Shown here: positions 33,934 to 64,000 of the stretch, in pieces
Layout: each line of letters begins with the position of its first letter
How positions within the stretch are numbered: position 1 is the first letter of the stretch
DNA from: a virus
IMG/VR virus record: IMGVR_UViG_3300006802_000099
Location: 1-64,000 of that record
DNA: 64,000 bases
Strand: one strand, 5' to 3'
Notes under the pieces: model-generated
What the model was told of the DNA's origin: nothing
The model's database searches: none
Seen by the model: the letters and a program-made list of their open reading frames with translations, nothing else
Program-made: the position numbers and the translations under genes

Positions 33934-33963
33934 CTCTCGCTATATTAAGGTAACCTATAGGAT

Positions 33964-34432: not shown

Positions 34433-34435
34433 ATA
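34428..34435 (+). promoter_or_regulatory. Late promoter TATAAATA at the gp4 stop codon
   Basis: A perfect plus-strand TATAAATA containing the gp4 TAA stop, 78 bases before the next ATG at 34513. It would drive the unknown gene, gp54, gp26 and the tape-measure-like gene. Confidence 0.65.
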
Positions 34436-34512
34436 GTAGAGTATTTTATTAATCCCCGACATAGTGAATTTATCATCGTGTCAATATCTTGTCAAGTATC
34501 AATTGAACCAAA

Positions 34513-36017: not shown

Positions 36018-36033
36018 TAAAAAAGGAGGGTAA

Positions 36034-43832: not shown

Positions 43833-43861
43833 AATATAATACTTCAGGAGTGTTTTGTCAA
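43833..43861 (-). promoter_or_regulatory. Host-type promoter TTGACA-N17-TATATT before DNA ligase
   Basis: TTGACA at 43856-43861 and TATATT at 43833-43838, minus strand, a few bases past the stop of the carbamoyltransferase gene. Confidence 0.65.
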
Positions 43862-43864
43862 GTG

Positions 43865-45337
43865 CTATAAAACCAAAATATCGTAAACATTACTAAATTC
43901 TGTGGCATCCTCTATGGTATTAACCATTGGTTTTCCACGAATATTTAAACTGGTATTTAAAATCATTGGACAACCAGTTTCCTGTTCCCATAATTTCAAG
44001 AATTTATTAAACCCTGGAGAATCATATTCTGAAACAGTTTGGACTCTAGAGCTTCCATCATGATGTATGATGGCTGGGAATTCATCTGGTTTTTTACATT
44101 GCATTGTGTATTGCATATATGGACTTTCAGAGGTACACATATGAAAATAATTTGATGCTTCTTTTTTAAGGATGGCGGGAGCAAAAGGTCTGAATTTTTG
44201 TCTACGTTTAATTTCGTTTACTTTATCTTTTATTTCAGGACCTCTAGGATCAGCCAGTAAACTTCTGTGACCTAAAGCTCTTGGTCCAAACTCTGCTCTA
44301 CCATTAGCAATACCAACAATTTTATGTTTTTTTAAAGCATCTACTAATTGTTCGGCTGGATACTTACCTTTAATATCATGTCCTAAAAATGCATTATTAA
44401 AAAGCATAGATTGTTTTCTTTGAGCAGCAACCGCACCCAAACTGTTACCTGCATCACCTGGGTTAGGCATGATCCACACATTTTTGAAATAAGTATGTGC
44501 AATAGAATTAGCTACACAATTTAATGCACATCCACCCGCAAGAACTAAATTATCCGATGGTACTAATTCTTTGGCTTTGTGCAACAAATCATGAAAATAT
44601 AATTCATAAACAAATTGTGTGGCTGCTGCAATATCATACTTATCTTGTTCAGAAGATAGTTCGCGCCTCCACCATTTACAACCACGATGAAGGTTTTCCT
44701 TTAACTTAAGATCATGTTTTGTATCAAAGAAGTCTTCCAATATTATTGGAGCATACTTGGATGCGTCTCCATATGCAGCCATACCCATCAAAATATATTC
44801 TTCTTCGTTTGGTTTTAATCCAACACGTTGGGTCATTGCAGAATACCACAATCCTAAACTATGGGGATATTTAACACTAAATTTCTTGTGTAATTTTTTA
44901 TTTTTTCCTTCCCATATTGTTGTGGTATCAAATTCACCTATGGCATCAATCACTAAAATGGCAGCATCAGGAAACAAAGAAGTATAATAACCACCTGCTG
45001 CATGACTTTCGTGGTGATTACCGAACGTTAAATATTTTGGGTCAATATTATATTTCAGTAAATAATCTCTAAAATTATTTTCTTTCCCTAACCACCCTTG
45101 ACCTGACATGAATTGTCGGAATGTTTTTGTAAATGGATTTTCATACCATACTACTTCATCTGGTTTGCCAAAATACAAAGCATCTGAAATTAAATCATGG
45201 TGTAAATGAGCATCATTCTTTTTTCTTGAATAACGTTCACTTTGTGCGGCAAAAAGTATGGTGTTGTGTTTATCCACAACCGTGATTGCTGCATCATGGC
45301 TATTTGCTGATATTCCCCAACTAATCATATTATTCAT
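43865..45337 (-). CDS. NodU/CmcH-type carbamoyltransferase
   Basis: The 490-aa protein has both domains of this family. The N-terminal Kae1-like half has WGISANSHDAAITVVD, ERYSRKKND, NHHESHAAGGYYTSLFPDAA and VIDAIGEFDTTT. The C-terminal carbamoyl-transfer half has LAGGCALNCVANS, GDAGNSLGAVAAQ and EFGPRALGHRSLLADPRGPE. Such enzymes put a carbamoyl group from carbamoyl phosphate on a hydroxyl of a sugar or antibiotic (Nod factor, cephamycin). Being last in the 20-kb accessory operon, it may modify a glycan built by the other genes. The acceptor is unknown. Confidence 0.9.
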   Translation of the reverse strand: MNNMISWGISANSHDAAITVVDKHNTILFAAQSERYSRKKNDAHLHHDLISDALYFGKPDEVVWYENPFTKTFRQFMSGQGWLGKENNFRDYLLKYNIDPKYLTFGNHHESHAAGGYYTSLFPDAAILVIDAIGEFDTTTIWEGKNKKLHKKFSVKYPHSLGLWYSAMTQRVGLKPNEEEYILMGMAAYGDASKYAPIILEDFFDTKHDLKLKENLHRGCKWWRRELSSEQDKYDIAAATQFVYELYFHDLLHKAKELVPSDNLVLAGGCALNCVANSIAHTYFKNVWIMPNPGDAGNSLGAVAAQRKQSMLFNNAFLGHDIKGKYPAEQLVDALKKHKIVGIANGRAEFGPRALGHRSLLADPRGPEIKDKVNEIKRRQKFRPFAPAILKKEASNYFHMCTSESPYMQYTMQCKKPDEFPAIIHHDGSSRVQTVSEYDSPGFNKFLKLWEQETGCPMILNTSLNIRGKPMVNTIEDATEFSNVYDILVL

Positions 45338-45338
45338 A

Positions 45339-46202
45339 TTATAACATTTTTTCTATTTTAGGTAAGATATGCTGCTCTAAAAAATTTTTATGTGCTTCGG
45401 GGCCTGGATGAACAGTATCTAATAATTTATAATTGTTTTTTTCTGTGAATTCCAATAAAGGTTCCATTACCCAATTATCAAAATTGATACAATCATAAAG
45501 AGGTTTTAAAAAATTATATTTTTTATAACAAATATCTTTCTTGATTTTTTTAAAGTGAAAATCATAATCAGGATAATAGAAAAAATCTATAGCCATCATA
45601 TTCAACATTTTGATGTTATTTTTTTCACAAAAATATTGTAGTAATAAAATATTATTAAATGTTTCTAACAATTCACTTCCGGAAGAGTGGTAGGTATCGT
45701 ACCAAGGTTTAACAAATTTATCAATTTCTGGGTACCAACCGAATTCATATGTACCACCAGGACTTCCTACAGCCCAAAATTCATTAATATTTGTTGTTTC
45801 TTCTTTTGAAAAGGACTTTAAGGCGACATGATGATAGGTTCGGTTTGGAAAGGGAAAAATATCTAAAAATATAGGATTTAAAACTGGTAATGGTTCTCTT
45901 TTTAATAAGATTGGATCATAAACATATAAATCTGAACCATACATTTCTTCCCTGTCTATTAAAAATAATTTTCTAGGAGGATAGGTCCAAAGAACAGCTA
46001 GAAAAATTTCATTGGAGTTATATCCTTTTTCAAATGCTGTTTGAATACCATGTATTGAACTTCTGGTAATCCATTCATTTCCATATGAAGGCATAGCAAG
46101 ATTGTGTATAGGAACCATCAAATGCTCAGCCAATCTATTATTCCAATCAGGGTGCTCGGATGAAAAGCTATCACCACTTGTTATTAGTATTTTAATTTCC
46201 AT
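45339..46202 (-). CDS. SGNH/GDSL-type hydrolase-like protein (287 aa)
   Basis: Block I is ILITSGDSFSSEHPDW (serine in GDS) and block V is LLDTVHPGPEAHKNF with the D-x-x-H dyad. NLAMPSYGNEWI may provide the Gly/Asn of blocks II-III. There is no signal peptide, so a cytoplasmic target is likely. SGNH enzymes remove or move O-acyl groups; here a sugar or lipid-linked intermediate is plausible. It overlaps the next upstream SGNH gene by one base, so the pair may act together. Confidence 0.75.
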   Translation of the reverse strand: MEIKILITSGDSFSSEHPDWNNRLAEHLMVPIHNLAMPSYGNEWITRSSIHGIQTAFEKGYNSNEIFLAVLWTYPPRKLFLIDREEMYGSDLYVYDPILLKREPLPVLNPIFLDIFPFPNRTYHHVALKSFSKEETTNINEFWAVGSPGGTYEFGWYPEIDKFVKPWYDTYHSSGSELLETFNNILLLQYFCEKNNIKMLNMMAIDFFYYPDYDFHFKKIKKDICYKKYNFLKPLYDCINFDNWVMEPLLEFTEKNNYKLLDTVHPGPEAHKNFLEQHILPKIEKML

Positions 46203-46987
46203 TATAACTGTTCTTTAATTTTTAAATAATGGTTAAACAAATATTCTGCAACCAATGAATGTCCAAAATCATTATAATGGCTGAGATCTAGTTCTCCGGT
46301 AATACTGTCATAACCTAGCATAATATTTTGCCAAGATTCTTCAGAATGTATGTGCTCATCTTCCATGTTCTTGTCTGTGTACATTAAAGTCGAACATTTA
46401 TTACCTATTATCTGCTCGGCCATTTTTTCCCAAATATTGATTGCTCTATGCCAATATATTAGCAGTTTTATATTGTTCAACTGGCATATTGATTCTATTA
46501 AGGTATGATAAACTTGCCATTTATGTAGGAAGAAAAGTTCGTTTTCTGCGGTTACGGATTCTAATGCGCTTATATATTTTGACATCATTACTTGTTGAAA
46601 ATCATTAGGGTTGACATTTTTATATGCTGGTAACCCAATCTTGAAATTGTAATACACATAATCTCCTAAATTGGATTCGCGTATTAATGGTAAATCCCCA
46701 GGAACGGCGGGGCCATGATCTTTTCGTCGTTGTTCTACATCATTTAAAAGAGTCGGAACCTCTTGGCGAGTAGGTTCTGGCCATTGTATAATGACAAGAT
46801 CACCGGAGACTAGTTTTCCGTTTGTAATAGCATCAACAACTTCTTTAATAACACGATCATTAGATCCGCAACCCTGTGCTAAATGCAAATAGTTATACCC
46901 TAATTTTTCCGCAAGGACTACACCGTAAGGTCGTAGGACCTTACAATAATCTGAAAAACTACAACCACCTACTGCTAAAGTTGGCAT
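46202..46987 (-). CDS. SGNH-type hydrolase-like protein (261 aa)
   Basis: Opens with LAVGGCSFSDYCKVLRPYGV (G-C-S in place of GDS, as in other members here), QGCGSNDRVIKEVVDAI (block III G-x-N-D) and LVIIQWPEPTRQEV, and ends with LSHYNDFGHSLVAEYLFNHY (the D-x-G-H dyad). Similar 'GCSFxD...GSND...QWPEPxR' proteins occur in marine phage gene clusters. It overlaps both neighbours by one base. The substrate is unknown; the family suggests acyl ester hydrolysis or transfer. Confidence 0.75.
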   Translation of the reverse strand: MPTLAVGGCSFSDYCKVLRPYGVVLAEKLGYNYLHLAQGCGSNDRVIKEVVDAITNGKLVSGDLVIIQWPEPTRQEVPTLLNDVEQRRKDHGPAVPGDLPLIRESNLGDYVYYNFKIGLPAYKNVNPNDFQQVMMSKYISALESVTAENELFFLHKWQVYHTLIESICQLNNIKLLIYWHRAINIWEKMAEQIIGNKCSTLMYTDKNMEDEHIHSEESWQNIMLGYDSITGELDLSHYNDFGHSLVAEYLFNHYLKIKEQL

Positions 46988-48252
46988 TATTTCCCCTCAT
47001 AAAAAATTCTATACTTCTTTTTAAAAATTTGATTTACTGTATTTTTTAAATTTATAAAACTATCCTTCAAATGATCATTATTATAAAAATGTTTCATGTT
47101 ATGTTCTAAAATAGGTATATTTTTTAATATAATTTGATTTTTTTGTCTTCTTGATAAAGAAATCCATTTTTCCAATGATTGGTGAGCGCAAAAGAATCTT
47201 TCCTTATCATTTTCAATATCATCATAACTTTGATCTATACCATAAAAATCCGTTTCATATCCTAAAGTTTGTAAAAATTTTAAAACTCCTTTTTGTCCTA
47301 ATAATATAAACGGATGTCCAGCAACTATAGGTTTAAAAACTTTTTCAGTTATAAACAATCCAGGGTCAAAAAAATTTGTTTCAGTTACGAAAGTTAATAA
47401 ACTACTTTTATATATATCGTGATTAAATCTGGCTGTTTCATCCAAATATTCAATTTTTTGCGACCAATCACCGTCCACAAATATCGGCAAATTCTCCATC
47501 AAAATATCGGTAAAATATTTATGATTAATATCAAAATAATTTTCTACCAGCTCTTTCGGGGTCATTGTTTTATTAATATCACATAAACCACTAACCACAT
47601 TATTTTCAACTAAGTTTTTATCTATTAAATAAAACAAATGGAAAAACCGTTGTAATCTTCCGGTTCGGTTTAAACTATTAAAAGATTTTGCTTCCAAATC
47701 CCTTATTGCTTTTAATACCAGCGGATTTTTAGGTATCTTGTTTTCAAAATAAAAAAATCCTGCGAGACCATAACAATGAGCAATTCTTGGGGTTACCTTC
47801 TTTTTTATACACCAATTTTCATATTCATGATTAAATAATTTATCACCATTGAAAATTAAAACACTAAATGGAGGCAATTCATGCATTTTCATAAAATCAT
47901 GAATTTTCTGAAACCCATTAGCTTTTTCATAATTTAAAGATTTTCCTTCTTCCGTATTATCTATCACTAATATTATTTGTTCCTGTTTTAAGGCCTTGAT
48001 TGTTCTTTCTGGTATATGATTGAGTATATTTTCAGTATGAGGTGTCGCTCCCAGCCAAGTATCTGCATGTTCTCTAACTTTAATAAAATAAATTCCTTTT
48101 TCAGGATAAGGTACTAATCTGCTACGAGACTCCTTAACAACAAAACCTGCCCGCCGTGCTTCTCCGATACTATGTAAAGAATAATCAAAAACTTCTTTTT
48201 CCAAATGACTTAAATTTCCTAAGTTTTTGTCATCATAATATGCTACAATCAT
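46987..48252 (-). CDS. TEK-family glycosyltransferase-like protein A (421 aa)
   Basis: The C-terminal third has the shared block: FVTETNFFDPGLFITEKVFK, PIVAGHPFILLGQKGVLKFL and QTLGYETDFYGIDQSYDDIE. The order (T-E, then [FI]-[TS]-E-K-x-x-K-P, then H-P-F-I-x-x-G, then L-x-x-x-G-[YF]) recalls the C-terminal 'TEKLxxAxxxxxVPIYxG' of GT10 fucosyltransferases and exostosin-like enzymes. The N-terminal part is unlike the paralogues. It is inferred to be a sugar transferase of the accessory cluster; the activity is unproven. Confidence 0.6.
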   Translation of the reverse strand: MIVAYYDDKNLGNLSHLEKEVFDYSLHSIGEARRAGFVVKESRSRLVPYPEKGIYFIKVREHADTWLGATPHTENILNHIPERTIKALKQEQIILVIDNTEEGKSLNYEKANGFQKIHDFMKMHELPPFSVLIFNGDKLFNHEYENWCIKKKVTPRIAHCYGLAGFFYFENKIPKNPLVLKAIRDLEAKSFNSLNRTGRLQRFFHLFYLIDKNLVENNVVSGLCDINKTMTPKELVENYFDINHKYFTDILMENLPIFVDGDWSQKIEYLDETARFNHDIYKSSLLTFVTETNFFDPGLFITEKVFKPIVAGHPFILLGQKGVLKFLQTLGYETDFYGIDQSYDDIENDKERFFCAHQSLEKWISLSRRQKNQIILKNIPILEHNMKHFYNNDHLKDSFINLKNTVNQIFKKKYRIFYEGK

Positions 48253-49301
48253 TGGTAATCACCATAAGTATCATTTCGTATAGTGTCCAATGTAACACAA
48301 TGTGGACCGCCACTCAAGGTTCTACAGTGTCTCAATCTAATAGGTAACACATCAAAACCGCTAGATTCTAATTGTTTTATGAGCGGTGTTTGTCTTTCTT
48401 CTACAGCAACTAAAGTTTCAGATAAACTTAAAACATTCATGCCTATCCACGGACTTGCTGCTGCCCAGTGTTCTTCATAAGGGGTTTCTATGGGATCAAC
48501 ACTCCAAATTTTTTCCCAATTTTTAAAATATGAAGGTAAATTATTTTCGTTTATTCTTTTAGGATTTAATAAAACTTTACCTGGAGCTAAAGGCAAAATA
48601 GTAGTATCAACATGAATAAAAGCATATATGTTTTCTAAAAGATGAACCTTATATTTTTCACCTAGAAATCTTTGTAGCCATTTTGCTCCTAGTATATTAC
48701 CTGAATTTGATACTAAATAAAAAATGTCTTTTCCACACTTAATTACATTTGCAGCATCAAAAGCAATTTCATAATTTGTTAAGGTAGGTTTACTTAAATC
48801 TGTTCGGTCATATAACTTATTATCTAATTGCGGTTTTGGGGCAGATATCCAATTACTACCCGCATCAAAATATTTCTGAAATAAACTTCTATAAGCAAAC
48901 GTTTCGAAGTATCTTGATCTAAGTGGCATAGGTGTTTCAATAATAGTATCACCTATAATTAATACACTATCTCTTGGACAATAAAGATAATAGCCATCAG
49001 AAGTCCAATTTGGTGTTGAAAAAGTATCTGCACAATTTTTAATTTCAGGTCTATAAACAATAATACCTAGATTTTCCAATTGTGTTTGAAAAACATTCAA
49101 ATCTTCTATGGTCTCTTCTATGATTTTAGAATCATAATAACCGCTGGGTAAATTATCGGTTTTTTCATAGTTTGCATAATCCACGCAATGCATATCATGT
49201 TTTTTAATTGTAGGGATATGAGCAAATTCTGCTCTACCTAAAATTATTTCTTTTAAATCGCCCCATTCTGTGTGACAATTAATTTTGTTTAGTGTTTCCA
49301 T
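48249..49301 (-). CDS. AGAT/StrB-like amidinotransferase (350 aa)
   Basis: Starting at ATG 49301 (MKSQ... is a longer, overlapping alternative from 49343). The protein has the glycine-amidinotransferase layout: CHTEWGDLKEIILGRAEFAH, AFDAANVIKCGKDIFYLVSN followed by SGNILGAKWLQRFLGEKY, YAFIHVDTTILPLAPGKVLL and the C-terminal TLSGGPHCVTLDTI with catalytic Cys at about 335. Asp, His and Cys of the AGAT active site are all in place. Such enzymes move an amidino group from arginine to an amine such as glycine, or to an aminocyclitol. In this glycan-like cluster the acceptor may be an amino sugar. It overlaps the TEK gene by four bases. Confidence 0.85.
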   Translation of the reverse strand: METLNKINCHTEWGDLKEIILGRAEFAHIPTIKKHDMHCVDYANYEKTDNLPSGYYDSKIIEETIEDLNVFQTQLENLGIIVYRPEIKNCADTFSTPNWTSDGYYLYCPRDSVLIIGDTIIETPMPLRSRYFETFAYRSLFQKYFDAGSNWISAPKPQLDNKLYDRTDLSKPTLTNYEIAFDAANVIKCGKDIFYLVSNSGNILGAKWLQRFLGEKYKVHLLENIYAFIHVDTTILPLAPGKVLLNPKRINENNLPSYFKNWEKIWSVDPIETPYEEHWAAASPWIGMNVLSLSETLVAVEERQTPLIKQLESSGFDVLPIRLRHCRTLSGGPHCVTLDTIRNDTYGDYQ

Positions 49302-49302
49302 T

Positions 49303-50490
49303 TTAAAATTTCCACGGCGTATGTCTGAAATCTGTGATTTCAAAAAATCTATTATAATTGTGCTCTACTATATCTTTTATATTTAATTGCCATTCATGCC
49401 ATTGCTCTTCAGACAGATTACATAATCTTTCTATTTCGTCTACAATAGCAGCTAATCTTTTTTTAGGGTCAACAATCGTGTCATAATTCTCATTAATAAA
49501 GGGATGGAAGGTTTTATATCCTCTATCTCTTAATGCAGATAACATAAAAGCAGAACCAACCAAAATAAATGGATGTTTAACTGATATAGGTTTATAGGTT
49601 TTTTCTGTAAAAAATTTATGTGATTTATATTCACCATAAGTCCCCATAAAACCGGATTCGTGTGGATAAAAAATTGTTTCAGTTACAACGGAAAAATAAC
49701 TATTTTCAAAATACTCCAAATCTTTTGGTGTCATATCAACAGGATTATTTCTGAATTCTGAAACTCCACCCTCTAACCGTAGAGGTAACATATTTTCATT
49801 TTCTTTTATTGTATTGAATACTTTTTCCTCGTAAAAGGGATGTTGGAGTGAATCACCATAGTTATCTAACCACCTTTTAACCCAATTAATATTTGGGGCG
49901 TAGCCTGCCCCCGCCATCGAATAAAAAGATTGATTTAATAAATTTTTATTTATAACCTTAGATAACAATTCCATTCTATGTAATCTTTCTACCTTATTAA
50001 AACATAGAAATTTTTTTTCTCTTTTTCCAATAAGATAAGAATCAGTTTTAATTTTTGTGCCTTGATAATCTCTAGCAATTTTTTCAAAAACATAATAGGA
50101 TATTATATTAATTCTCTCTCTGTAATTTAAACTATTGCAAAATTGATCATAACTTTTAGGACCGTCTAAAGTTCCAGTTGTTAAAAAAATATTTGATGCA
50201 TCAATGTCTGTATTTTCTATAACATTATGAATTTTTTTTATGAGAGATATATGTACGGCTTCCATTGAATTAAAAAATATTATTTTTTTATTTTCCTTTA
50301 AAACGGCTAGAATAATTTCTTTCAATTCTTCATCGGTAAATCTATTAATTTTGTCAGCATAAGCGATAATAATGAAAAAATCATTTTGAAGTTCGCTCAA
50401 TTCCTTATAAATCAAAACTAGCAGAAGGAAATAGGTATCTGATTCCTCCTGTAAAAAAGTATATTTTTGATTTATTTCCTGTAGGTTCAT
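49303..50490 (-). CDS. TEK-family glycosyltransferase-like protein B (395 aa)
   Basis: Shared block at about 260-320: SVVTETIFYPHESGFMG, then KFFTEKTYKPISVKHPFILV and GSAFMLSALRDRGYKTFHPF, followed by NENYDTIVDPKKRL and a C-terminal helix ending VEHNYNRFFEI. The N-terminal half has FLTTGTLDGPKSYDQF and KFLCFNKVERLHRMELLSKV ('FLCFN..xRxHR', also in other members). Probably a cytoplasmic sugar transferase. The gene ends one base before the amidinotransferase start. Confidence 0.65.
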   Translation of the reverse strand: MNLQEINQKYTFLQEESDTYFLLLVLIYKELSELQNDFFIIIAYADKINRFTDEELKEIILAVLKENKKIIFFNSMEAVHISLIKKIHNVIENTDIDASNIFLTTGTLDGPKSYDQFCNSLNYRERINIISYYVFEKIARDYQGTKIKTDSYLIGKREKKFLCFNKVERLHRMELLSKVINKNLLNQSFYSMAGAGYAPNINWVKRWLDNYGDSLQHPFYEEKVFNTIKENENMLPLRLEGGVSEFRNNPVDMTPKDLEYFENSYFSVVTETIFYPHESGFMGTYGEYKSHKFFTEKTYKPISVKHPFILVGSAFMLSALRDRGYKTFHPFINENYDTIVDPKKRLAAIVDEIERLCNLSEEQWHEWQLNIKDIVEHNYNRFFEITDFRHTPWKF

Positions 50491-51716
50491 CTTGTATTGC
50501 CATATTGGATAACGATAGATTCAGAAATATCTTCTGTTTTTAAATATCTCCAAATATCTATAATAATACTTCCTGGAAGTATATTACAATAAAAATGTTG
50601 TTTATCACTACCAATTAAATGGCTATGACTATAGGTTGTTGGAGCATGATGAGCAAGAAGAATAACACCATGAGCTTCATTTATCACATCATTAGTAAGA
50701 GGGTCAATATATATTACCTCATGTCCTTGCTGTTCCACATAATGACCAATTAATAAACTGTAACTGCCTTCTGTGTATGCAACACCTGGCTTATATGCCT
50801 TACCATGAATATAAATTTTCATATTATTTTTATTGGCTAGGTCAACCATCTTTTCTGCCACACGTTTGGCTTGTAGTTCTCTACTATCCATGATGGCGCC
50901 AAATAAATCATAACCTAAATTTAATTTTTGTGATAACCAACGTAAAGCAATGTTATCACGAGGATGGCAAGCACCTGCATCTCCCATACCCGCTTTCATA
51001 TAGGCCGGCCCCATGATCCGTCGGTCGCTTTCTGCCAAAGCTTTTGTCACCACATCCACATTGATGTTTCCAGATGCTTCTGCTACATCCTGTATCATGT
51101 TGACTAATCCAATTTTAGCAGAGATGAAAGTATTATAAAAAATCTTGATGCATTCTGCTTCATCCCAAGTACCTATGACATATCTTGGGTCATTTTGCAT
51201 AATAGTTTTATAAAAATTTGTTAAAATTTTTGCATCACCTGTAGTGGTTCCATCTTCAGTTCCTATAATAACCATTTCAGGATTAATCATGTCCCAGTTT
51301 ACAGATCCCATTGCAATTAGATATGGGTTGTAAATGAATCTATAATTAGATGTGTGTTTGATAAATTCTCTGCGAGTGGTTCCTGGAAGAACAGTACTAA
51401 TAAGAACTATTAGTTGATCTTTAGTGCAATGATTATTCAATTCCTTTAATATATCAATAACTATTGAATAATCAAAATCTTTCGGCTCTAAATGTGCTGT
51501 CGGTATTTCACCACCATAAGAAGAATCATGAGGTGTTGGGACAGCAATAAAAATTAATTCTCTGTTTTGTACCGCTTCTTTTATAGAAGACAAAACAGAG
51601 AATTCTGCTATACCATGATCTTCAATATCATATCCTACTACATCATAGCCAGCATTTTTCATTTCGTTTGCACACGGTGCTCCTAATTTACCGCAACCAA
51701 TCATTGCAACCTTCAT
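50487..51716 (-). CDS. UDP-sugar (UDP-glucose/UDP-ManNAc type) 6-dehydrogenase
   Basis: The 409-aa protein has the family Rossmann fold MKVAMIGCGKLGAPCANEMK (G-x-G-x-x-G), VPTPHD, LISTVLPGTTRREF, the central helix EAECIKIFYNTFISAKIGLV and the catalytic cysteine in GMGDAGACHPRDNIALRW. The third domain has KIYIHGKAYKPGVAYTEGSY and a YIDPL segment. It would oxidise a nucleotide sugar to the uronic acid using NAD+, supplying a charged sugar for polysaccharide. The UDP-glucose versus UDP-N-acetylmannosamine preference cannot be read. It overlaps TEK protein B by four bases. Confidence 0.88.
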   Translation of the reverse strand: MKVAMIGCGKLGAPCANEMKNAGYDVVGYDIEDHGIAEFSVLSSIKEAVQNRELIFIAVPTPHDSSYGGEIPTAHLEPKDFDYSIVIDILKELNNHCTKDQLIVLISTVLPGTTRREFIKHTSNYRFIYNPYLIAMGSVNWDMINPEMVIIGTEDGTTTGDAKILTNFYKTIMQNDPRYVIGTWDEAECIKIFYNTFISAKIGLVNMIQDVAEASGNINVDVVTKALAESDRRIMGPAYMKAGMGDAGACHPRDNIALRWLSQKLNLGYDLFGAIMDSRELQAKRVAEKMVDLANKNNMKIYIHGKAYKPGVAYTEGSYSLLIGHYVEQQGHEVIYIDPLTNDVINEAHGVILLAHHAPTTYSHSHLIGSDKQHFYCNILPGSIIIDIWRYLKTEDISESIVIQYGNTR

Positions 51717-51728
51717 TGATTTAATCTC

Positions 51729-55681: not shown

Positions 55682-55684
55682 ATT

Positions 55685-56782
55685 TTAATCCTCAATAAAT
55701 TTATAAAAAGCTTCTTTCCTTTTTTCATCCACACTATCAATCATATTTTTCATATTTAAATAATTTTTATGTGCTCGTTCTGAAAAATTATTTATTAATA
55801 CAGAATAATCTTCAACATTTTTATCTAAAAGGTAATTATATACTCTTTCAATTTCATTCCCAATCAATTTTATTCTTACATAAGGATCATGCTCTTTATC
55901 ATAAGAATGATCAATAAAATCATCAAAAATATCAAACCCCAAACTTCTAAGATATTCAGCATATCCTTCGGGTGCTACAAAAATAGGAACTTGGTGACAA
56001 AAAAATGCCTTGCTGGTTTTTTCTGTGAAGAAATGTCTATTCCAAGATTCACATATAGGTAAAAGTGTACCTTCAGGAGAAATTACAGGTGAATAATCAT
56101 ACCCAGATTCCATTACCACATTTATTAGAGCAGACACCCAAATCGAAAGATGTTTATGTGAATCATCATAATGTTCTAGGATATTTATTTTCCCAAAAGG
56201 AGTTAATGGGAATATTTTTCTCACATCTTCAGGTAATAAAGAAAGGTAATTTTCTAACATTCCTTCTTGTTCTAATGCTGCACCGCAGGTTATTATTGTT
56301 TTAACAGATAAATGCAGGTTCCTTTTAATTAATTCATAAGTCATCAAAACCCTAAAAGGTCTAGCAATTCTTGCTAATGAGATCAAGATTTTATCTTTTT
56401 TAACTACTGTTTCAGGATAAAAACCGGAAGTGCCAACAACACCAACATTTACCATAGAAAGATGATGCCATTTTCTAGATAAGGGATTAATAAGAGCTCC
56501 ACAATCTACAAATAACATATCTTTTTCTTCTATACCTAAATTTTGTAATATTCTAGATATTTCAAACCAATATGAAGAAAAAAATGCTTCAGTACAAATA
56601 TGAATAATAATTTTATCCATATCTTTAATAGTTTCTTTGTTTTCTTCAATTAATTTTAATACCCGGTCATATGCACTACCTTCTTGAATTATAAAAATTT
56701 TTTTATTTATATCTGAAATTGGATATTCCCAATCCCTGCTGAAAAAACCAATAGAAACGTCACAATGATGATTATGTATCAT
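55685..56782 (-). CDS. TEK-family glycosyltransferase-like protein D (365 aa)
   Basis: The TEK block is degenerate: NRHFFTEKTSKAFFCHQVPI then FVAPEGYAEYLRSLGFDIFD and DFIDHSYDKEHDPYVRIKLI, with 'K-A' instead of 'K-P'. The N-terminal half has NHHCDVSIGFFSRDWEYPIS and VGTSGFYPETVVKKDKILIS LARIARPFR, which matches the 'x-x-F-x-C-L-x-x-x-R-x-H-R' position. Transferase function is likely but the altered block may change it. It overlaps the SGNH gene upstream by 11 bases. Confidence 0.6.
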   Translation of the reverse strand: MIHNHHCDVSIGFFSRDWEYPISDINKKIFIIQEGSAYDRVLKLIEENKETIKDMDKIIIHICTEAFFSSYWFEISRILQNLGIEEKDMLFVDCGALINPLSRKWHHLSMVNVGVVGTSGFYPETVVKKDKILISLARIARPFRVLMTYELIKRNLHLSVKTIITCGAALEQEGMLENYLSLLPEDVRKIFPLTPFGKINILEHYDDSHKHLSIWVSALINVVMESGYDYSPVISPEGTLLPICESWNRHFFTEKTSKAFFCHQVPIFVAPEGYAEYLRSLGFDIFDDFIDHSYDKEHDPYVRIKLIGNEIERVYNYLLDKNVEDYSVLINNFSERAHKNYLNMKNMIDSVDEKRKEAFYKFIED

Positions 56783-57581
56783 AATTATTATTTTTTATAA
56801 AAGTATACAGGCAATTTGCAATAACTTTATAACCTTCTATGGTAGGATGAATACAATTTGCCAAATAGGTTAATGGCCATGGTAATTCTGTATAAGTACC
56901 AAAATGTTCATCATGGTTACAAAAACCATCTAAATCAGATAAAAGATTTATAAAATTTTTATATTGGTCATGTTTATGGTAGTAATTATCCCATTTAATT
57001 AAATTTGTGTATTTTTCTCCAATGTGATTTTTCAAATATCCAGGCAAAAAATATGGATCATATGCATTTGCAAATATGAATTTGAAATTATATCTTTCTG
57101 CAAAAGTTTGAGCTTCCAGTACCGCAGCTAAAAATTCCATACACATCATTGCAGGGCAAAAAATTTCGGTTCTATATGCATCCCACCAAGGCTTTGGTGG
57201 GTCGTGAGGTTGCGGCCAAGCCGTCCAAAACTTATAGTGTTGATCTGGGCGATCATTAAATGTGTCCCATCTCTCTAATCCTGGACACATTAAAATAATT
57301 ATTCCGCTATCATTTTCCCAATCCACCTCGTCGGTTAAATAAAGTTGTTTTACAGCGGCCGTGTTGCCTATCCCTCTAACTCCTAAATTCACAGGAGTGT
57401 AATCGGTTAGATGATCTCTACACAAAACATTAATCCAACTATTTTCGTGTTCATATCCTCTCAGATGTTCATCAGGAACCCCGCGCAAGTTTACACGACC
57501 ATTGTATTGTTTCCATATTTCTTCCGGATATCCACCTTCACCTTGAGCCCAACTACATCCCAACCCAACTATTTTTTTCAT
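56772..57581 (-). CDS. SGNH-type hydrolase-like protein (269 aa)
   Basis: MKKIVGLGCSWAQGEGGYPE carries the block I serine (G-C-S-W), NLGVRGIGNTAAVKQL is the block II-III region with Gly and Asn, IIILMCPGLERWDTFND follows, and CIHPTIEGYKVIANCLYTFI holds the C-terminal His. Tetrad elements typical of cytoplasmic SGNH esterases are present. The gene is coupled to its neighbours by stop/start overlaps. The substrate is unknown. Confidence 0.75.
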   Translation of the reverse strand: MKKIVGLGCSWAQGEGGYPEEIWKQYNGRVNLRGVPDEHLRGYEHENSWINVLCRDHLTDYTPVNLGVRGIGNTAAVKQLYLTDEVDWENDSGIIILMCPGLERWDTFNDRPDQHYKFWTAWPQPHDPPKPWWDAYRTEIFCPAMMCMEFLAAVLEAQTFAERYNFKFIFANAYDPYFLPGYLKNHIGEKYTNLIKWDNYYHKHDQYKNFINLLSDLDGFCNHDEHFGTYTELPWPLTYLANCIHPTIEGYKVIANCLYTFIKNNNYDT

Positions 57582-58891
57582 AGGAATTTACTCCAAAATG
57601 TTTTACTTAAATTTTTATCACGATAAACTTCTACCAATCTCTGGTAGTTATAATCTACAATCTCTAAGGTTTCTTCAAAAAATTTTTTCTTTGTTTCTAA
57701 ATCCCATAGATTTATTTCTTTACATATTTCACCTACTCTAATATATCGGTCATAATCATTTTGAATATCATCATAATCTTCAGGGAACCAATTTGAAAAT
57801 GTTTTATAACCATGGTTTCTAAAATATCTCAAAACTCCTGGTGTGCTTAAAATCATAAAAGGTTTTTTATAATAAATTGGTTTATATGATTTTTCTGAAA
57901 TTTGTTGGACAGCTCCGTTACCTTGTGTTTCAGTAACCAAACAAACCAAAGATGCTTCATACCAGGAGCGCAATTTCCTCATTGTATCTTGTACCATATC
58001 ACCATAACTAGTATCAATGTCTACACGCAATGGTAACCTATTTTGTATGTTATTTAAATCTTCTTCAGTAAGTCCTATTCTTTGAGCAAATGTTCTATTA
58101 ACCACATCCTTCCATACTTGTCCTGTACTATCCGGATGTTCTGCAGGCATACTAAAAAAACTATCTTTGAGTAAATCATTTTTGTAAAAATACATAAGAA
58201 GATTAATTCTGTGTTCTCTGTATCTTCTATTCAAACAAATAAATGTGGTTTTTATATTTTTAAAATCTTTATTTCCAATATAGTTGGATTGTGGCCCCTG
58301 AAAATTTCTAGAAAGATGCCATTCATTGCTGTCCCAAAAAGTTATATTCATTCTTTGATCTATTGGGATGTTTTCATTATTACACCATTCCGTATATAAT
58401 TCATTCCCGTTTGGGGCGCCGGACTGATAAAAAACTTTTGGTAAAGGTATATGATGTTCAGAAAAATATTTGTGCATTGTTTTATACAAATATGGATAAA
58501 TTTCTGCCTCAACTGAATATTCTAACAACAAATAACCATTACCGGACCTTATTCCGTGTTTTATATGGCCAGGTGTATTACTAAGTTCAAACAACCCAGG
58601 AGAATGATCATAAATGAAATAACCTGGAAAAGGTTTTTCATGATGTAGTTCAAAGGGATAAACAAAAGTATCTTCCGGTTTAATTTCTGATGATGGAATT
58701 AATTCAAAAACATCTTTCATAGTAGAAAAAAAATTTGAGTTTATTCCACTAGATCTCCATTTTTTTGATAATCTATTTGAGTGTTGTACCTCTTCGAGAA
58801 CCGAAGATAATTGGTATATGTTCGGTGTTTCTAGATTTGGTATTGGTCCGGTCGGACCAAACCAATCGTATACTATTTTAATTTTCTTCAT
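57578..58891 (-). CDS. TEK-family glycosyltransferase-like protein E (437 aa)
   Basis: Shared block: LVTETQGNGAVQQISEKSYK, PIYYKKPFMILSTPGVLRYF and RNHGYKTFSNWFPEDYDDIQ followed by NDYDRY. Earlier are TFICLNRRYREHRINLLMYF ('F-I-C-L-N-x-R...R') and FWDSNEWHLSRN. The N-terminus KIKIVYDWFGPTGPIPNLET is a Rossmann-like start. Of the five members this has the clearest full-length layout. It overlaps the SGNH gene downstream by four bases. Confidence 0.65.
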   Translation of the reverse strand: MKKIKIVYDWFGPTGPIPNLETPNIYQLSSVLEEVQHSNRLSKKWRSSGINSNFFSTMKDVFELIPSSEIKPEDTFVYPFELHHEKPFPGYFIYDHSPGLFELSNTPGHIKHGIRSGNGYLLLEYSVEAEIYPYLYKTMHKYFSEHHIPLPKVFYQSGAPNGNELYTEWCNNENIPIDQRMNITFWDSNEWHLSRNFQGPQSNYIGNKDFKNIKTTFICLNRRYREHRINLLMYFYKNDLLKDSFFSMPAEHPDSTGQVWKDVVNRTFAQRIGLTEEDLNNIQNRLPLRVDIDTSYGDMVQDTMRKLRSWYEASLVCLVTETQGNGAVQQISEKSYKPIYYKKPFMILSTPGVLRYFRNHGYKTFSNWFPEDYDDIQNDYDRYIRVGEICKEINLWDLETKKKFFEETLEIVDYNYQRLVEVYRDKNLSKTFWSKFL

Positions 58892-59777
58892 TAGTAATTA
58901 CCGTTATAATCCTATTTGCTGCAGTTTGATGTCCTCTCCAACTTGGGTGTATTCCATCTACTCCTGCATGGATATGATACCAATCACAATGACCTTGTTG
59001 AAAATTTAAAATAAAAGGCTCAACAATTAAATGTGTTCTAAAAATTTCAAAATCATATTTCGGCCACATATCATCTAAAATAAAATTATAAACCTTAATA
59101 TTAAGTGCTTGTAAAAATAAATTTACTTGATTGTAATATTGTACAAAGGAATTACTCCAAGTTTCTTGTACAACTGCACTTCTTAGAAAATTTTCCTGAT
59201 ATACATTCACTGCTTCGTCCCAAAGGTTTGTGGGGGTATTTGTTGGTAATAAATGTAATGCAGTACCTTCGTTATTGATACAATCAATTACCTTGGTTTG
59301 TCTTGACGGTTCTGGCCATACTATAAGGATTCTTTCTGGTTTTGGTCTATTTTGCATAAACCATCCGAAAATATTTAGACTTACATATTCTGGAGATCCA
59401 CCACCTTTAGATATGTTCACAACATTTCTATTAAAATGTTCTTGATAATAATGATCCCAACGTTCCTTTAATCGCACACCAATGCCTTCTGGCACAGAAC
59501 ACCCTATTGCTAAATCATAAGGACCTTTATTGATAATATCAAATTCATGAGTTCTATAACCATAGCTATTGAAAAAATAGAAATCATCTTCCAGATTTCT
59601 ATATGGCCATTCTTCCTCTGAAACATTTTTAGGTATAATAACACTATCTACAAAATTATAATATAGATTTTCGTCCCACGTTCCTAAAAATTTTCTAGGT
59701 CCCAGGTGATTGTAACCTTCCACATATTTTAATATGTCTCTATATAAATGATTTGGTTTAAAAGTCAAATTACGCAT
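58878..59777 (-). CDS. SGNH-type hydrolase-like protein (299 aa)
   Basis: DLAIGCSVPEGIGVRLKERW (block I G-C-S), NVVNISKGGGSPEYVSLNIF (block II), RILIVWPEPSRQTKVI (the 'WPEPSR' phrase also in the SGNH gene at 46202-46987) and GVDGIHPSWRGHQTAANRII (D-x-x-H). It probably hydrolyses or transfers an acyl ester on a cluster intermediate. It overlaps TEK protein E by 14 bases and the radical-SAM gene by one. Confidence 0.78.
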   Translation of the reverse strand: MRNLTFKPNHLYRDILKYVEGYNHLGPRKFLGTWDENLYYNFVDSVIIPKNVSEEEWPYRNLEDDFYFFNSYGYRTHEFDIINKGPYDLAIGCSVPEGIGVRLKERWDHYYQEHFNRNVVNISKGGGSPEYVSLNIFGWFMQNRPKPERILIVWPEPSRQTKVIDCINNEGTALHLLPTNTPTNLWDEAVNVYQENFLRSAVVQETWSNSFVQYYNQVNLFLQALNIKVYNFILDDMWPKYDFEIFRTHLIVEPFILNFQQGHCDWYHIHAGVDGIHPSWRGHQTAANRIITVITNEEN

Positions 59778-60742
59778 TATTTTCTCTTAGGTATAATGAT
59801 ATCAGTTCCACAAACGCAATGATATTTATCACAAATTATACTTTTTGGTTTTACCTGTTCAACATCAGTTAAAATGTGACCAACCACACCAGAAACACCA
59901 CAACTAGCCATGGTTATTAATCCTGCGGGGTTAATAAAAACTGAATCTCCGATATCACATTCCCAACCTGTAAAAAAATTCTGACGGGCAATGATAATTT
60001 CATTACTGTTTATAAATTTGTCTGTACCGTCTGACCATTTACCATAGGAAACAGCAACACTATCTTTAAATGGTTTGTTGGGGGCAAACTTAACTTCCAG
60101 ATCTTGGTGATTTTCTATCCATTCATTTTTAGCAGAATCTTTATATTCCCATGGCTTTGCAAAAGCAGACATTTCATCAAACAAAGGTGTCCATTCAATA
60201 TAATAACCAGGCAATTCTCTCTTTAACATTTCACCATATTCTACAACTTCCCAAAATTTTTCATCATGTAATAAAAGTTTATTACAAAAGTAATTTATTT
60301 TATCGCATAAAAATAAACTATTTTTAAAATATCTTTCTTTGTTTACCCCTTCAATATGAAAACTAGCTACAATGTCATCAAAGAGCTGGTAATGAGATTT
60401 CCACCAAGATGTAGCTCTACTTAAATTAGTATTAATAGCTATTGTATTATTTGGTGTATTTTCTTTGAAAAACTCTACTACAGGAATTAAATTTTTCCAA
60501 ATCGTTGGTTCTCCACCACTCAAATATAACTTGAAAGCGTTATAACCATTTTCCTTGTAGATGTTAATTATTTTTTCTAGTTGACGAAGATATATATCCG
60601 TGTTATCATCATTTTTATGATTACCATTCCAATTACCTGGATTACAATAACTACAACTATAGTTACAATTATCGCTAACCTGCCAAGTAATGGCTAGATA
60701 TTTTTCTTTAGGGTATATTTCTTCTATTCTTGATTGGACCAT
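59777..60742 (-). CDS. Radical-SAM protein with C-terminal cysteine cluster (321 aa)
   Basis: AITWQVSDNCNYSCSYCNPG has the C-x3-C-x2-C cluster; KLYLSGGEPTIWKNLIPVVE is the GGEP SAM-binding motif. The end (ASCGVSGVVGHI ... ICDKYHCVCGTD) has a set of cysteines like a SPASM or twitch auxiliary iron-sulfur site. It resembles radical-SAM proteins that modify peptides or sugars. It sits between an SGNH gene and three tandem twitch-type paralogues; overlaps the next by 19 bases. Confidence 0.82.
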   Translation of the reverse strand: MVQSRIEEIYPKEKYLAITWQVSDNCNYSCSYCNPGNWNGNHKNDDNTDIYLRQLEKIINIYKENGYNAFKLYLSGGEPTIWKNLIPVVEFFKENTPNNTIAINTNLSRATSWWKSHYQLFDDIVASFHIEGVNKERYFKNSLFLCDKINYFCNKLLLHDEKFWEVVEYGEMLKRELPGYYIEWTPLFDEMSAFAKPWEYKDSAKNEWIENHQDLEVKFAPNKPFKDSVAVSYGKWSDGTDKFINSNEIIIARQNFFTGWECDIGDSVFINPAGLITMASCGVSGVVGHILTDVEQVKPKSIICDKYHCVCGTDIIIPKRK

Positions 60743-62010
60743 AAGTATAATTCTTTAAATTGAGGAATAGCTTCAAAAATATTTTCATTTCTTAATTCAT
60801 CATAAGTTGCATTTAGTTTAAAAAATTCTTGGACTCCACCTTTATTGGATTTTACATGATCCAATGCTCCTATAATAGGTAATAATTTATCTATATAAGG
60901 ATGAGATTCAGGAAATTTAGTCCTCATATCATGATGGTGTTGTCTCCACATTTGCTGTACGTTCTTTGCTATATGTAGAGGTAAAATATCTATAGATTGA
61001 TACCAAGGATAAGTTAGAATATTCAATCTCATACTATTTTCTGAAAAATCTATTATTTCATTTTTAATTAACCATTCATGTAATTTTGGGAAATCAAAAA
61101 TGTTGTATAAAGATATAGTAGGTGTTATACCAAATTTAACATGGGGGACTTCTTTTTTTAATTCGTTAATGTTTTTAACAATTTGCTCCCAATTTGCACC
61201 ATGTCGAAGAAATTGTATGACATCTCCCATTGCATCTAAACTGGCCCATATTTGAACGTTTTTAAATTTTTTCCAATAATCTATAGCATTTTTATCTTTA
61301 TATCTTAAGGTCAAAAAATTTGTCGTATATGTTAATTCCACATCTGTGTGATGATTTTCCAACCAATAATCTAAAATATCATAATGCTCTTTGGTTATCA
61401 AAGATTCTCCGCCAGCAAAATATACCTCTTCCACATCAAGAAGATAAGGCTCCAATTTATTTAAAAGATTATTTTTTTCATTATTAGAAACTACAATTTT
61501 TTTCATGTTAAAAAAAGTTTCTAAGTTTTCTTTTCCTTTATCTCCGTACATTTGGACATATTCTTCAGCCCAACGACTACTGCAGGCTGGACCACAAGTA
61601 CGACATTTCATATTACAAAGATTACTAAACCTTATATCTAGGTATTTCATCTTAAAATCTGTAATTTCACCATCATCTTTTGTATTTTCTACCAAAGTTT
61701 TAGAGCTTTGTAATCTTCTTGTATTATTAGATTGTCTCAACGACCATAAACCATATCCTTCCAATTCATAACATCTTTTACATTCTTCTACATACTCATC
61801 TTTTAACATACTAACACGTATTTCTTTATATCTTTCTGAATTCATCATATCCAGGACGGTTTTTTTATCCGTAGAAGAAACCGGTTTATTTGAATCAGCC
61901 ACACAACACGGCATTATTCTTTTGTCCGGCCAGGCATGAAAATGAATCCAAGGCAAAACACAAAAATGCTTAGTTTGTTCTGGGTTACTCAATATCGGCA
62001 AGGTTTTCAT
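60724..62010 (-). CDS. Twitch-domain radical-SAM protein, paralogue 1 (428 aa)
   Basis: Starts with a cysteine-rich auxiliary cluster, HFCVLPWIHFHAWPDKRIMP then CCVADSN, and ECKRCYELE. The radical-SAM core follows: LDIRFSNLCNMKCRTCGPAC with C-x3-C-x2-C, then EVYFAGGESLITKEHYDILD. It ends ELRNENIFEAIPQFKELYLW. The layout (N-terminal auxiliary cysteines before the core) is shared with the next two genes, a tandem triplication. The target is unknown; family members are mostly maturases of peptides or small molecules. Confidence 0.85.
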   Translation of the reverse strand: MKTLPILSNPEQTKHFCVLPWIHFHAWPDKRIMPCCVADSNKPVSSTDKKTVLDMMNSERYKEIRVSMLKDEYVEECKRCYELEGYGLWSLRQSNNTRRLQSSKTLVENTKDDGEITDFKMKYLDIRFSNLCNMKCRTCGPACSSRWAEEYVQMYGDKGKENLETFFNMKKIVVSNNEKNNLLNKLEPYLLDVEEVYFAGGESLITKEHYDILDYWLENHHTDVELTYTTNFLTLRYKDKNAIDYWKKFKNVQIWASLDAMGDVIQFLRHGANWEQIVKNINELKKEVPHVKFGITPTISLYNIFDFPKLHEWLIKNEIIDFSENSMRLNILTYPWYQSIDILPLHIAKNVQQMWRQHHHDMRTKFPESHPYIDKLLPIIGALDHVKSNKGGVQEFFKLNATYDELRNENIFEAIPQFKELYLWSNQE

Positions 62011-63241
62011 ACCATTCTCTCAATTCGGGGAAAGACTCACAAAAATTTTCGTTTCTTATACTATCAAAATGCTGAGTTAAATTTTTAAATTTCTTTTGCC
62101 ATTCTATATTTGGTTCAGTATCTTCCTGAATAAAATGGTATATGTCGGTCAAATTACTTTTGATTGGACCATCTTCATGTGTATTTAACCAATTTAGAAT
62201 TTTATTTTTTGCTTCAGTTTTTAATTCTGTTGTTAGAACATTGTTCAAATTATAATGATCTGGATTAATTAATTTATAAAAAGAGCAAGTAGTTGTTTTC
62301 CAATCTATCAACCCTTCCTGATGTAAATGATCTAAAAAATCTGTTATTGTTAATATATTAAAAACACCAACTACACAATTGAATGAAATAGAAACTGAAG
62401 GACATTTTTTTTGAACTATTTTCAAATTTTCTAAAATTTTATTCCATTCGGTACCATGTCTCATGTATTCTGCTCTAGACCCAAAACTATCTAAACTACC
62501 ATACACTTCGACCTTTTTAAACTCATTCCATAAATCGGTGACATTTTTATTTTTAAATTCTAATCTACTGCAATTTGTATTATATCTTAATATAACATCC
62601 GTGCTGTTATTGTCAATAAGATATTCCAATATTTGATAATGTTCGGGGGTAATTAATGGTTCTCCACCAGCAAAATATAACATTTCCAAATCACCTAAAT
62701 GAGGCTCAAATTGTTTCAGCAAGTTGGGATCCCCATTTGAGGCATGCATTAATCCATTTACTTCTCCGTATCCTTGTTTGAAAGATTCAGCAGCCCAGGT
62801 AGAAGAAAACATATCACCACAAGTTCTGCACTTAAAATTACATAGGTTACTAAACCTAACATCAAAATATTTCAAATGCATCCCAGGAAGATATCCATCT
62901 TCTAAAGTTTCTTTGGTTAAATCAAAATGTTGCCCAAATTCATTGTTTGCAAAATTTCTAAATGAAAATCCACCTGAACCAGTAGATTCATGTCTATAAC
63001 AATTTGCACACCCTTCTACAATTTCACCAGCAAGTAATTTTTTGCGAACTTCTTTTAATTCTGGGCTGTTCCAAAGTTCTTCAATAGAAGATTCTCTTAC
63101 ATTTCCTATCGGATTTTCGTAACGAGTGGTACAACATGGATATGCAGCTCCATCGGTATTTACATATAGATGTATCCATGGAAACATACAAAATGTTTTG
63201 TTAGTTTCTAATAACTTATCAAGTTCTGGATGTTTACTCAT
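61985..63241 (-). CDS. Twitch-domain radical-SAM protein, paralogue 2 (418 aa)
   Basis: TFCMFPWIHLYVNTDGAAYP then CCTTRY, and EGCANCYRHE, precede YFDVRFSNLCNFKCRTCGDM (C-x3-C-x2-C) and EMLYFAGGEPLITPEHYQIL. It ends SIRNENFCESFPELREWYEN. Strong overall resemblance to paralogue 1 (same block order and spacing) indicates duplication. It overlaps paralogue 1 by 26 bases and the third copy by four. Confidence 0.87.
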   Translation of the reverse strand: MSKHPELDKLLETNKTFCMFPWIHLYVNTDGAAYPCCTTRYENPIGNVRESSIEELWNSPELKEVRKKLLAGEIVEGCANCYRHESTGSGGFSFRNFANNEFGQHFDLTKETLEDGYLPGMHLKYFDVRFSNLCNFKCRTCGDMFSSTWAAESFKQGYGEVNGLMHASNGDPNLLKQFEPHLGDLEMLYFAGGEPLITPEHYQILEYLIDNNSTDVILRYNTNCSRLEFKNKNVTDLWNEFKKVEVYGSLDSFGSRAEYMRHGTEWNKILENLKIVQKKCPSVSISFNCVVGVFNILTITDFLDHLHQEGLIDWKTTTCSFYKLINPDHYNLNNVLTTELKTEAKNKILNWLNTHEDGPIKSNLTDIYHFIQEDTEPNIEWQKKFKNLTQHFDSIRNENFCESFPELREWYENLADIE

Positions 63242-64000
63242 AGTTTTTTGCCTGCAAGATAGAAATCCTTGTATTCTGGGAATGTTTCCAAGAAGTTTGT
63301 TCCTCTTCTCTTATCATATTCGGTAAACCATTGATAAAAATCCTTATGACCCATTTCTTGTCTTGCGGGATCATAATGGGTTGCTTCCATGTATTTCAAA
63401 ACACGCTTGAATCTTTCCAACTCAAGTTCAGAAAATTTTGTTACATCATTTTCATCTGTGTTTTGCTTCATGAAGTCATAATGCTTGTACATATATGGCA
63501 TGAAAACATCTTTAGGTAGAATATTCATATCATACTGTATAGGTTCTTTGAGATATGGTGTATCAAAGCGTATCTTTCTTTCCAATGGTCTTATTTCGTC
63601 ATCAGGAATGACATCATTGTATTTAATACGCCACTCTAATATTTTCTTTAACAATTTGTCAAAATTTGCAATGCTTAATGCGTTAAAAGTAATCATGAAA
63701 GTAACATGGCTCTTGGTCATGTTCACATAAGTATCTAAATTATTTTCCCAAGTTTGTAAATTCAATCCTGTTCTTAGATATTCTGCCTGTGGACCCCATG
63801 TATCAACACTACTAAACAATTTAAATTTTTTAATACATTTATTGTCCAATAGTTCAGTAACGTGGTTTGAAAGACGAACAACCCATTCGTTTTTTCCACC
63901 CAAATTACTATTGATGTTTAATTCTAAATTGGGTTGTGGATCTTCTTTCAAAGATTCTAACAATCTCCAAGTACTTTTATGCATCAAAGGTTCTCCGCCA
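63238..64000 (-). CDS. Twitch-domain radical-SAM protein, paralogue 3, 5' end beyond the window
   Basis: Only the C-terminal part is visible; the frame is open through base 64000, where it reads GGEPLMHKS, the SAM-binding GGEP motif. The end, RRGTNFLETFPEYKDFYLAG, matches the shared 'R-x-x-N-F-x-E-x-F-P-E' end of paralogues 1 and 2. The iron-sulfur cysteines lie outside the window. An internal ATG near 63987 is not the start. Confidence 0.8.
   Translation of the reverse strand, partial: GGEPLMHKSTWRLLESLKEDPQPNLELNINSNLGGKNEWVVRLSNHVTELLDNKCIKKFKLFSSVDTWGPQAEYLRTGLNLQTWENNLDTYVNMTKSHVTFMITFNALSIANFDKLLKKILEWRIKYNDVIPDDEIRPLERKIRFDTPYLKEPIQYDMNILPKDVFMPYMYKHYDFMKQNTDENDVTKFSELELERFKRVLKYMEATHYDPARQEMGHKDFYQWFTEYDKRRGTNFLETFPEYKDFYLAGKKL

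Follow-up and report, generated by a model that had tools for sequence, protein, structure and literature searches.

We analyzed a 64,000-base stretch of viral DNA (the window), which comprises bases 1-64000 of the 65,262-base virus record IMGVR_UViG_3300006802_000099, and found that positions 43865-64000 carry 17 minus-strand genes, 16 of them complete and one cut at position 64000, belonging to an operon for glycan-type chemistry. This combination of genes is widespread in uncultured phages, and comparison of sister phages indicates that the center of the operon is replaced between them in the manner of bacterial serotype loci. From the genes and their families, promoter classes, co-occurrence and swapping we infer a product, an acceptor and a benefit to the phage: we tentatively favor a cytoplasmic phage pathway by which a heavily decorated oligosaccharide is built and attached, remodeling an envelope glycan of the host.

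The operon and its genes

This marine phage is T4-like: its baseplate protein gp6 has its nearest relatives, at 36-39% identity, in Pelagibacter phage HTVC008M and the Methylophilales phages (Melnitz). A 119,474-base contig, IMGVR_UViG_3300025889_017816 (G001), reaches past the window at both ends and is 99.96-99.98% identical to it over the compared stretches (window 38252-64000); window position p corresponds to G001 position p+34485. In G001 the operon runs ~3.6 kb past the window end. The genes found there are, in order, the rest of a radical S-adenosylmethionine (radical-SAM) gene of 461 amino acids (aa), a 226-aa gene, a 739-aa B12 radical-SAM gene, and genes for a GMP-reductase/IMPDH-family protein, an 86-aa protein and UvdE. 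The 226-aa product has no Pfam or PHROG match and is methyltransferase-like by eye.

A sequence-only reading of this DNA had described a 20-kb operon of at least fifteen genes. The operon is real and intact, but that length is an understatement: it comprises ~24 kb of biosynthesis genes on a predicted transcript of ~26 kb, with about twenty sugar-making or sugar-decorating genes. Nearly all of the 17 in the window overlap (junctions of -41 to +12 nucleotides, nt). The operon includes six radical-SAM genes (two of the B12 type), four SGNH-like genes, five TEK genes with six domains, and single copies of a UDP-glucose-dehydrogenase-like protein (UGD), a StrB1-type amidinotransferase and a TobZ/NodU-type carbamoyltransferase. 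All the enzyme classes named by the sequence-only reading were recovered by Pfam, motifs, profiles or fold. The genes in the window, all on the minus strand, are:

43865-45337, minus: TobZ/NodU/NovN-type O-carbamoyltransferase, the operon's last gene (PF16861, PF02543, PHROG 1601, HHxxH and FGPRALG motifs)
45339-46202, minus: SGNH-like hydrolase/acyltransferase (GDS and DTVH motifs, weak PF00657); no relative in sister phage G004
46202-46987, minus: SGNH-like hydrolase/acyltransferase (GCS and WPEPTR motifs); no relative in G004
46987-48252, minus: TEK-type GT-B glycosyltransferase (TEK-family alignment, TEK motif conserved)
48249-49301, minus: StrB1-type amidinotransferase; the reading frame opens at 49343, and homologues suggest the ATG at 49301
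49303-50490, minus: TEK-type GT-B glycosyltransferase (alignment A1)
50487-51716, minus: UDP-glucose 6-dehydrogenase-like nucleotide-sugar dehydrogenase (PF03721, PF00984, PDB UGDH, GACHPRD motif)
51729-53780, minus: two-domain TEK-type glycosyltransferase (TEK domains at residues 5-317 and 354-648)
53762-55681, minus: B12-dependent radical-SAM C-methyltransferase, KedN5/TokK-like (PF04055, PF02310, NF033712, PDB TokK)
55685-56782, minus: TEK-type glycosyltransferase (alignment A1)
56772-57581, minus: SGNH-like hydrolase/acyltransferase (GCS and HP motifs; syntenic family SGNH59 in relatives)
57578-58891, minus: TEK-type GT-B glycosyltransferase, modeled (AlphaFold2, Foldseek)
58878-59777, minus: SGNH hydrolase/acyltransferase, modeled (AlphaFold2, Foldseek)
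59777-60742, minus: radical-SAM enzyme (PF04055 3e-8, CNYSCSYC)
60724-62010, minus: twitch-domain radical-SAM enzyme (NF033640, 378 bits)
61985-63241, minus: twitch-domain radical-SAM enzyme (NF033640, 377.5 bits)
63238-64000 (to 64623 in the contig), minus: twitch-domain radical-SAM enzyme, 461 aa, cut by the window end (CNFKCGYC)

The reading frames are kept in relatives and most genes differ mainly at codon position 3, a test for which SGNH 58878 and TEK 57578 are too diverged to be informative; on these grounds the idea that the genes are pseudogenes was rejected. An Rfam search of the DNA found nothing.

Enzyme families and the predicted pathway

A radical-SAM Pfam match accompanies a CxxxCxxC motif in five genes (53762-55681, 59777-60742, 60724-62010, 61985-63241 and 63238-64623), and the sixth radical-SAM gene lies beyond the window. 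The product of 53762-55681 has B12-binding and radical-SAM domains (PF02310, PF04055) as well as CxxxCxxC, and matches PDB entries for TokK (3.6e-81) and CysS, both C-methyltransferases; its score against the KedN5 family NF033712 (1e-73, 248.6 bits) lies below the curated cut-off of 700 bits. Against NF033640 (cut-off 170 bits), 60724-62010 and 61985-63241 both pass, the cut fragment of the 461-aa protein scores 147.8 bits, and the 321-aa radical-SAM protein, at 44.8 bits, is not a member. An A-type Fe-S carrier protein encoded upstream of the operon, within G001 105434-106813, could serve its many radical-SAM enzymes.

The amidinotransferase is nearer to StrB1 than to GATM: its profile (A3) matches StrB1 (PDB 1bwd) over the full length at 2e-125 and 421.7 bits, versus ~259 bits for GATM. 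The window protein has the motifs of the catalytic Asp, His and Cys (FDAAN, HVDTT, GGPHC), and the key residues are invariant across nine phage proteins. The carbamoyltransferase (PF16861 4e-54, PF02543 3e-41; PHROG 1601) has NovN-, GdmN- and TobZ-type relatives in the PDB and the metal- and ATP-site motifs HHxxH and FGPRALG. The dehydrogenase matches PF03721 (1.5e-21), PF00984 and UGDH structures in the PDB and has the catalytic-Cys motif GACHPRD, with a score of 173 bits against TIGR03026, just under the curated cut-off of 189.8.

For the TEK proteins, Pfam and PHROGs gave no family. The AlphaFold2 model of 57578-58891 (predicted local distance difference test, pLDDT, 84; predicted TM-score, pTM, 0.86) matched GT-B enzymes in a Foldseek search of the PDB, among them trehalose-6-phosphate synthase and BshA (prob 1.00, E 2.9e-6, but TM ~0.4), and we therefore predict from the model that the TEK proteins are GT-B glycosyltransferases. 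Within the TEK region, E321, E333 and K334 are among the invariant columns of the alignment. The window's 683-aa protein contains two TEK domains, and a 1,054-aa protein of a relative fuses a dehydrogenase (residues 1-395) to a TEK domain (435-776). A sphingomyelinase identity, suggested by weak PDB matches in an alignment search, was dropped after the fold search.

The SGNH proteins score under the Pfam cut-offs, and their canonical Asn block is swapped for a W-x-E-x-x-R motif. The model of 58878-59777 (AlphaFold2 pTM 0.77), with TesA (TMt 0.67) and acetyl-xylan esterases as Foldseek matches, supports the SGNH fold for that protein; the other three are assigned by motif.

These families support the earlier proposal of a glycan-type pathway that handles acyl, amidino and carbamoyl groups, and a plausible course can be drawn from them. 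The dehydrogenase would supply a UDP-uronic acid and the TEK enzymes would transfer sugars; the twitch and B12 radical-SAM enzymes may change sugar carbons or C-methylate them; an amino group, provided in many relatives by a DegT-type aminotransferase, would become a guanidino group through the StrB1-type enzyme; a hydroxyl would be carbamoylated by the TobZ-type enzyme, and the SGNH enzymes would add or remove acyl groups. The target would be a host envelope glycan, met as a lipid-linked or lipopolysaccharide (LPS) precursor and exported by host machinery, and the remodeled envelope may block adsorption of rival phages.

The homologies to StrB1, TobZ/NovN, TokK/CysS and twitch radical-SAM enzymes are also those of antibiotic-type tailoring chemistry, as would be expected if infection produced a diffusible, aminoglycoside-like small molecule. 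We consider such a product quite improbable: no exporter, resistance gene or scaffold-forming enzyme was recognized, and six glycosyltransferase domains together with serotype-like swapping better suit a glycan attached to a polymer.

Distribution, gene order and exchange

Relatives of the amidinotransferase were found on at least 575 viral stretches and relatives of TEK-437, one of the window's TEK proteins, on at least 494. Co-occurrence was counted on dereplicated loci, with TEK loci of at least 12 kb. The distinct TEK loci number 37: non-B12 radical-SAM genes are present in 33 of them, B12 radical-SAM genes in 26, SGNH genes in 23, the dehydrogenase in 21 and tail fibers in 15. Of the 39 distinct amidinotransferase loci, 32 contain TEK, 29 non-B12 radical-SAM and 25 B12 radical-SAM genes; among 54 cellular amidinotransferase loci TEK and radical-SAM genes were each found in two. 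The genes thus occur together in many phages, which decides the sequence-only reading's own test, separate occurrence with unrelated partners, in its favor.

In cellular genomes the combination was met only on a few contigs of metagenome-assembled genomes (MAGs), and those with phage-type partners are probably phage. Phage-type module genes stand on L281 (PAAV01000010.1), L276 and L290; these contigs, labeled as MAGs of Chloroflexi, Bdellovibrionota and Bacteroidetes, are likely misbinned phage. A TEK scan of the genomes of 84,980 species gave 44 pattern matches and no relative, a search by two short patterns and so not exhaustive (alignments A1 and A6 contain no stretch conserved enough to serve as a pattern), and tblastn of two TEK proteins against 50,697 phage records gave no match.

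In many relatives the module follows tail-fiber genes on the same strand and has a common order: tail fibers, a small gene, glycosyltransferase-like genes, three or four twitch radical-SAM genes and TEK, and then a nucleotide-sugar epimerase, SGNH, B12 radical-SAM, dehydrogenase and carbamoyltransferase. In relatives the amidinotransferase adjoins aminotransferase-like, 2-oxoglutarate-oxygenase and B12 radical-SAM genes. In the relative G003, the B12 radical-SAM gene at the head of the operon is immediately preceded by a block made up of an early promoter, a 153-aa gene and two glycosyltransferase-like genes. By position and N-terminal sequence this block is homologous to one within the window's tail-fiber region:

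8464-10725, minus: probable detached part of the module, with its own early-type promoter at 10754-10781; it contains a c7-type glycosyltransferase-like gene (8464-9564), an Anp1-like glycosyltransferase gene (9554-10279) and a 149-aa gene (10276-10725)

Because the G003 block adjoins the operon while its apparent homologues in the window stand apart among tail-fiber genes, the module was probably split in the window's lineage.

Comparison of G001 with its sister G004 reveals how unevenly the operon varies. On its two sides proteins are 96-99% identical, and the identities listed are 98% for DNA ligase, 99% for UvdE, 97% for GMP reductase, 98.5% for the B12 radical-SAM protein, 99% for radical-SAM-461, 97.5% for the carbamoyltransferase and 94% for the dehydrogenase. 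In the center, genes are absent or 27-74% identical: TEK-437 is at 42%, SGNH 58878 at 33%, radical-SAM-428 at 65% and radical-SAM-418 at 74%, and G004 lacks any relative of the amidinotransferase and of three SGNH genes, as well as an orthologue of the KedN5-like enzyme. These identities indicate that the center has been replaced between the sisters as in bacterial serotype loci, and because replacement between conserved borders is the pattern of surface-antigen loci, the product is probably under diversifying selection. A second exchanged block comprises the baseplate and hub genes at window ~28586-37000, mostly 44-77% identical between G001 and G004 with neighbors at 97-100%, and recombination therefore extends beyond the operon.

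Promoters, acceptor and related systems

All promoters described here are consensus matches. A sigma-70-like motif, TTGAC[AT]-N16-18-TATATT, occurs at 11 sites in G001 below 108.7 kb. Non-coding DNA makes up 3.9% of the sequence, and 10 of the 11 sites touch it. The operon's only strong promoter, of this early type, is at G001 104352-104380 (window-frame 69867-69895), ~5.9 kb past the window end and 30 nt before UvdE; sister G004 shares it. The next one downstream marks the operon's border:

43833-43861 (G001 78318-78346), minus: early-type promoter TTGACA-N17-TATATT of DNA ligase

Since no nearer promoter lies upstream and the next is that of DNA ligase, a single transcript of ~26 kb is likely. 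The sequence-only reading had anticipated a transcript entering from beyond 64000 with no promoter inside, and both points agree with the predicted promoter and with the number of promoter-like matches in the operon (110, versus 119 expected from shuffles). The T4 late motif TATAAATA is at chance level across the whole window and enriched at non-coding sites; its nine non-coding sites in G001 precede virion structural genes where these are identifiable, and none lies before the operon. Repeated early promoters (TTGAC-N17-TATATT) with a shared CCAAAGGTGC-like element precede small genes at G001 110000-114500, probably an immediate-early region.

Early-type promoters also head the module in G003, G005/G014, G006 and G008, as in G001/G004, which favors an early, host-directed role. 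With the serotype-like replacement of the center and the tail-fiber linkage, the early-type promoter fits remodeling of the host envelope, so that for an early glycan-decoration pathway the host envelope is a more likely target than the virion. The alternative is that soluble enzymes glycosylate the phage's own tail fibers or other virion proteins in the cytoplasm, altering receptor binding or hiding the virion. The modules' lack of membrane proteins, their same-strand position after the tail fibers in many relatives, and the glycosyltransferase-like genes among the window's tail-fiber genes would all suit such decoration, and in some lineages CTAAATA or a late motif heads the module. We nevertheless regard it as unlikely: the early-type promoter serves not only the operon but also the detached glycosyltransferase block, which is embedded in late genes, and the same arrangement at the border of tail fibers and module recurs in G003, G005, G006 and G008.

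Several observations weigh against remodeling of the host envelope. At the module heads of G007, G009 (late-type) and L170-like contigs stands TATAAATA or CTAAATA, which favors a late role there, although CTAAATA, a candidate late motif, shows no general enrichment in relatives' non-coding DNA. Neither in the operon nor around related modules was a flippase, polymerase, ligase or exporter found, and of 2,845 proteins encoded around the modules not one contains at least five hydrophobic segments, versus 21 of 858 in cellular amidinotransferase loci. The neighborhood thus does not encode a complete route for polysaccharide export, and of the earlier suggestion that the phage builds a surface polysaccharide, the glycan-type pathway stands, but the phage is unlikely to make a full surface polysaccharide by itself. 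Lipid-linked or LPS-core acceptors at the inner membrane, virion proteins, DNA and a soluble product are all compatible with the lack of polytopic proteins.

For DNA, the operon would glycosylate or otherwise decorate modified bases. The phage carries QueD-, FolE- and QueE-like deazaguanine genes, the operon's predicted transcription is early, and DNA-modifying carbamoyltransferases are known. We judge this role very improbable: the deazaguanine genes lie far from the operon, the operon is linked to tail fibers, and its size, SGNH enzymes, UGD and variable glycosyltransferase number go beyond any DNA-modification pathway known to us. Our literature search on DNA modification, including carbamoyltransferases, and on virion glycosylation returned no usable paper. 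The QueD/PTPS-like, FolE and QueE-like genes, at G001 12149-17464 (L044, outside the window), suggest 7-deazaguanine DNA modification, and a 422-aa protein near them is DNA-guanine transglycosylase-like by eye, with no Pfam match. Upstream of the operon, the stretch that encodes the Fe-S carrier (L042 7434-8813) also encodes a 347-aa adenylosuccinate-synthetase-like protein with some similarity to PurZ.

It is instructive to compare the operon with known systems. The combination had been thought new, which holds in part: related modules were published for Campylobacter phages, as swappable clusters in which an amidinotransferase accompanies five radical-SAM genes (Timms et al. 2010, PMC2853527), and for pelagimyophages, as glycosyltransferase, UDP-glucose dehydrogenase and radical-SAM cassettes in or around host-recognition regions, with O-chain modification proposed (2020, PMC7029224). 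The window's operon shares with CP220/CPt10 the arrangement of several radical-SAM genes beside an amidinotransferase (CP220's is 32% identical to the window's) and sugar-transferase-type genes; unlike it, the Campylobacter module has no UGD, carbamoyltransferase or SGNH gene annotated in the stretch compared, and two window TEK proteins have no match in any phage record. The cultured pelagimyophages HTVC008M and Mosig have clusters of similar flavor, with glycosyltransferases, UDP-glucose dehydrogenase, carbamoyltransferase and radical-SAM genes beside tail fibers, but the genes are distant or different, no amidinotransferase was found in these isolates, and TEK-437, unmatched in the 50,697 phage records, is therefore absent from them.

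The streptomycin-type aminocyclitol pathway resembles the operon in its StrB1 enzyme, whose catalytic residues are kept, and in the DegT-type aminotransferase adjacent in some relatives; it differs in that the window's operon has no aminotransferase and its other partners are phage-type. Bacterial O-antigen loci likewise place conserved border genes around a replaceable set of transferases, but the operon has no Wzx, Wzy, ligase or other polytopic membrane protein. New here are the GT-B family formed by the TEK proteins, the conserved gene order of the module, the assignment of promoters, the exchange between sister phages and the absence of membrane proteins.

About one-fifth of the 119-kb contig is given to glycan chemistry, in a form that no cultured phage in the collection has. 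It is possible, if somewhat doubtful, that the operon is part of a widespread and essentially virus-only glycan assembly line, with its own TEK GT-B family, antibiotic-type radical-SAM and guanidinylation chemistry and diversifying, serotype-like exchange, which carries out phage-encoded serotype conversion by a guanidino/uronic glycan. If confirmed, the operon would extend the known glycosyltransferases by a new family and show viruses to be a source of sugar chemistry with guanidino, C-methyl and carbamoyl groups; it would also make it testable whether marine phages rewrite host surfaces, with effects on superinfection exclusion and grazing, or coat themselves.

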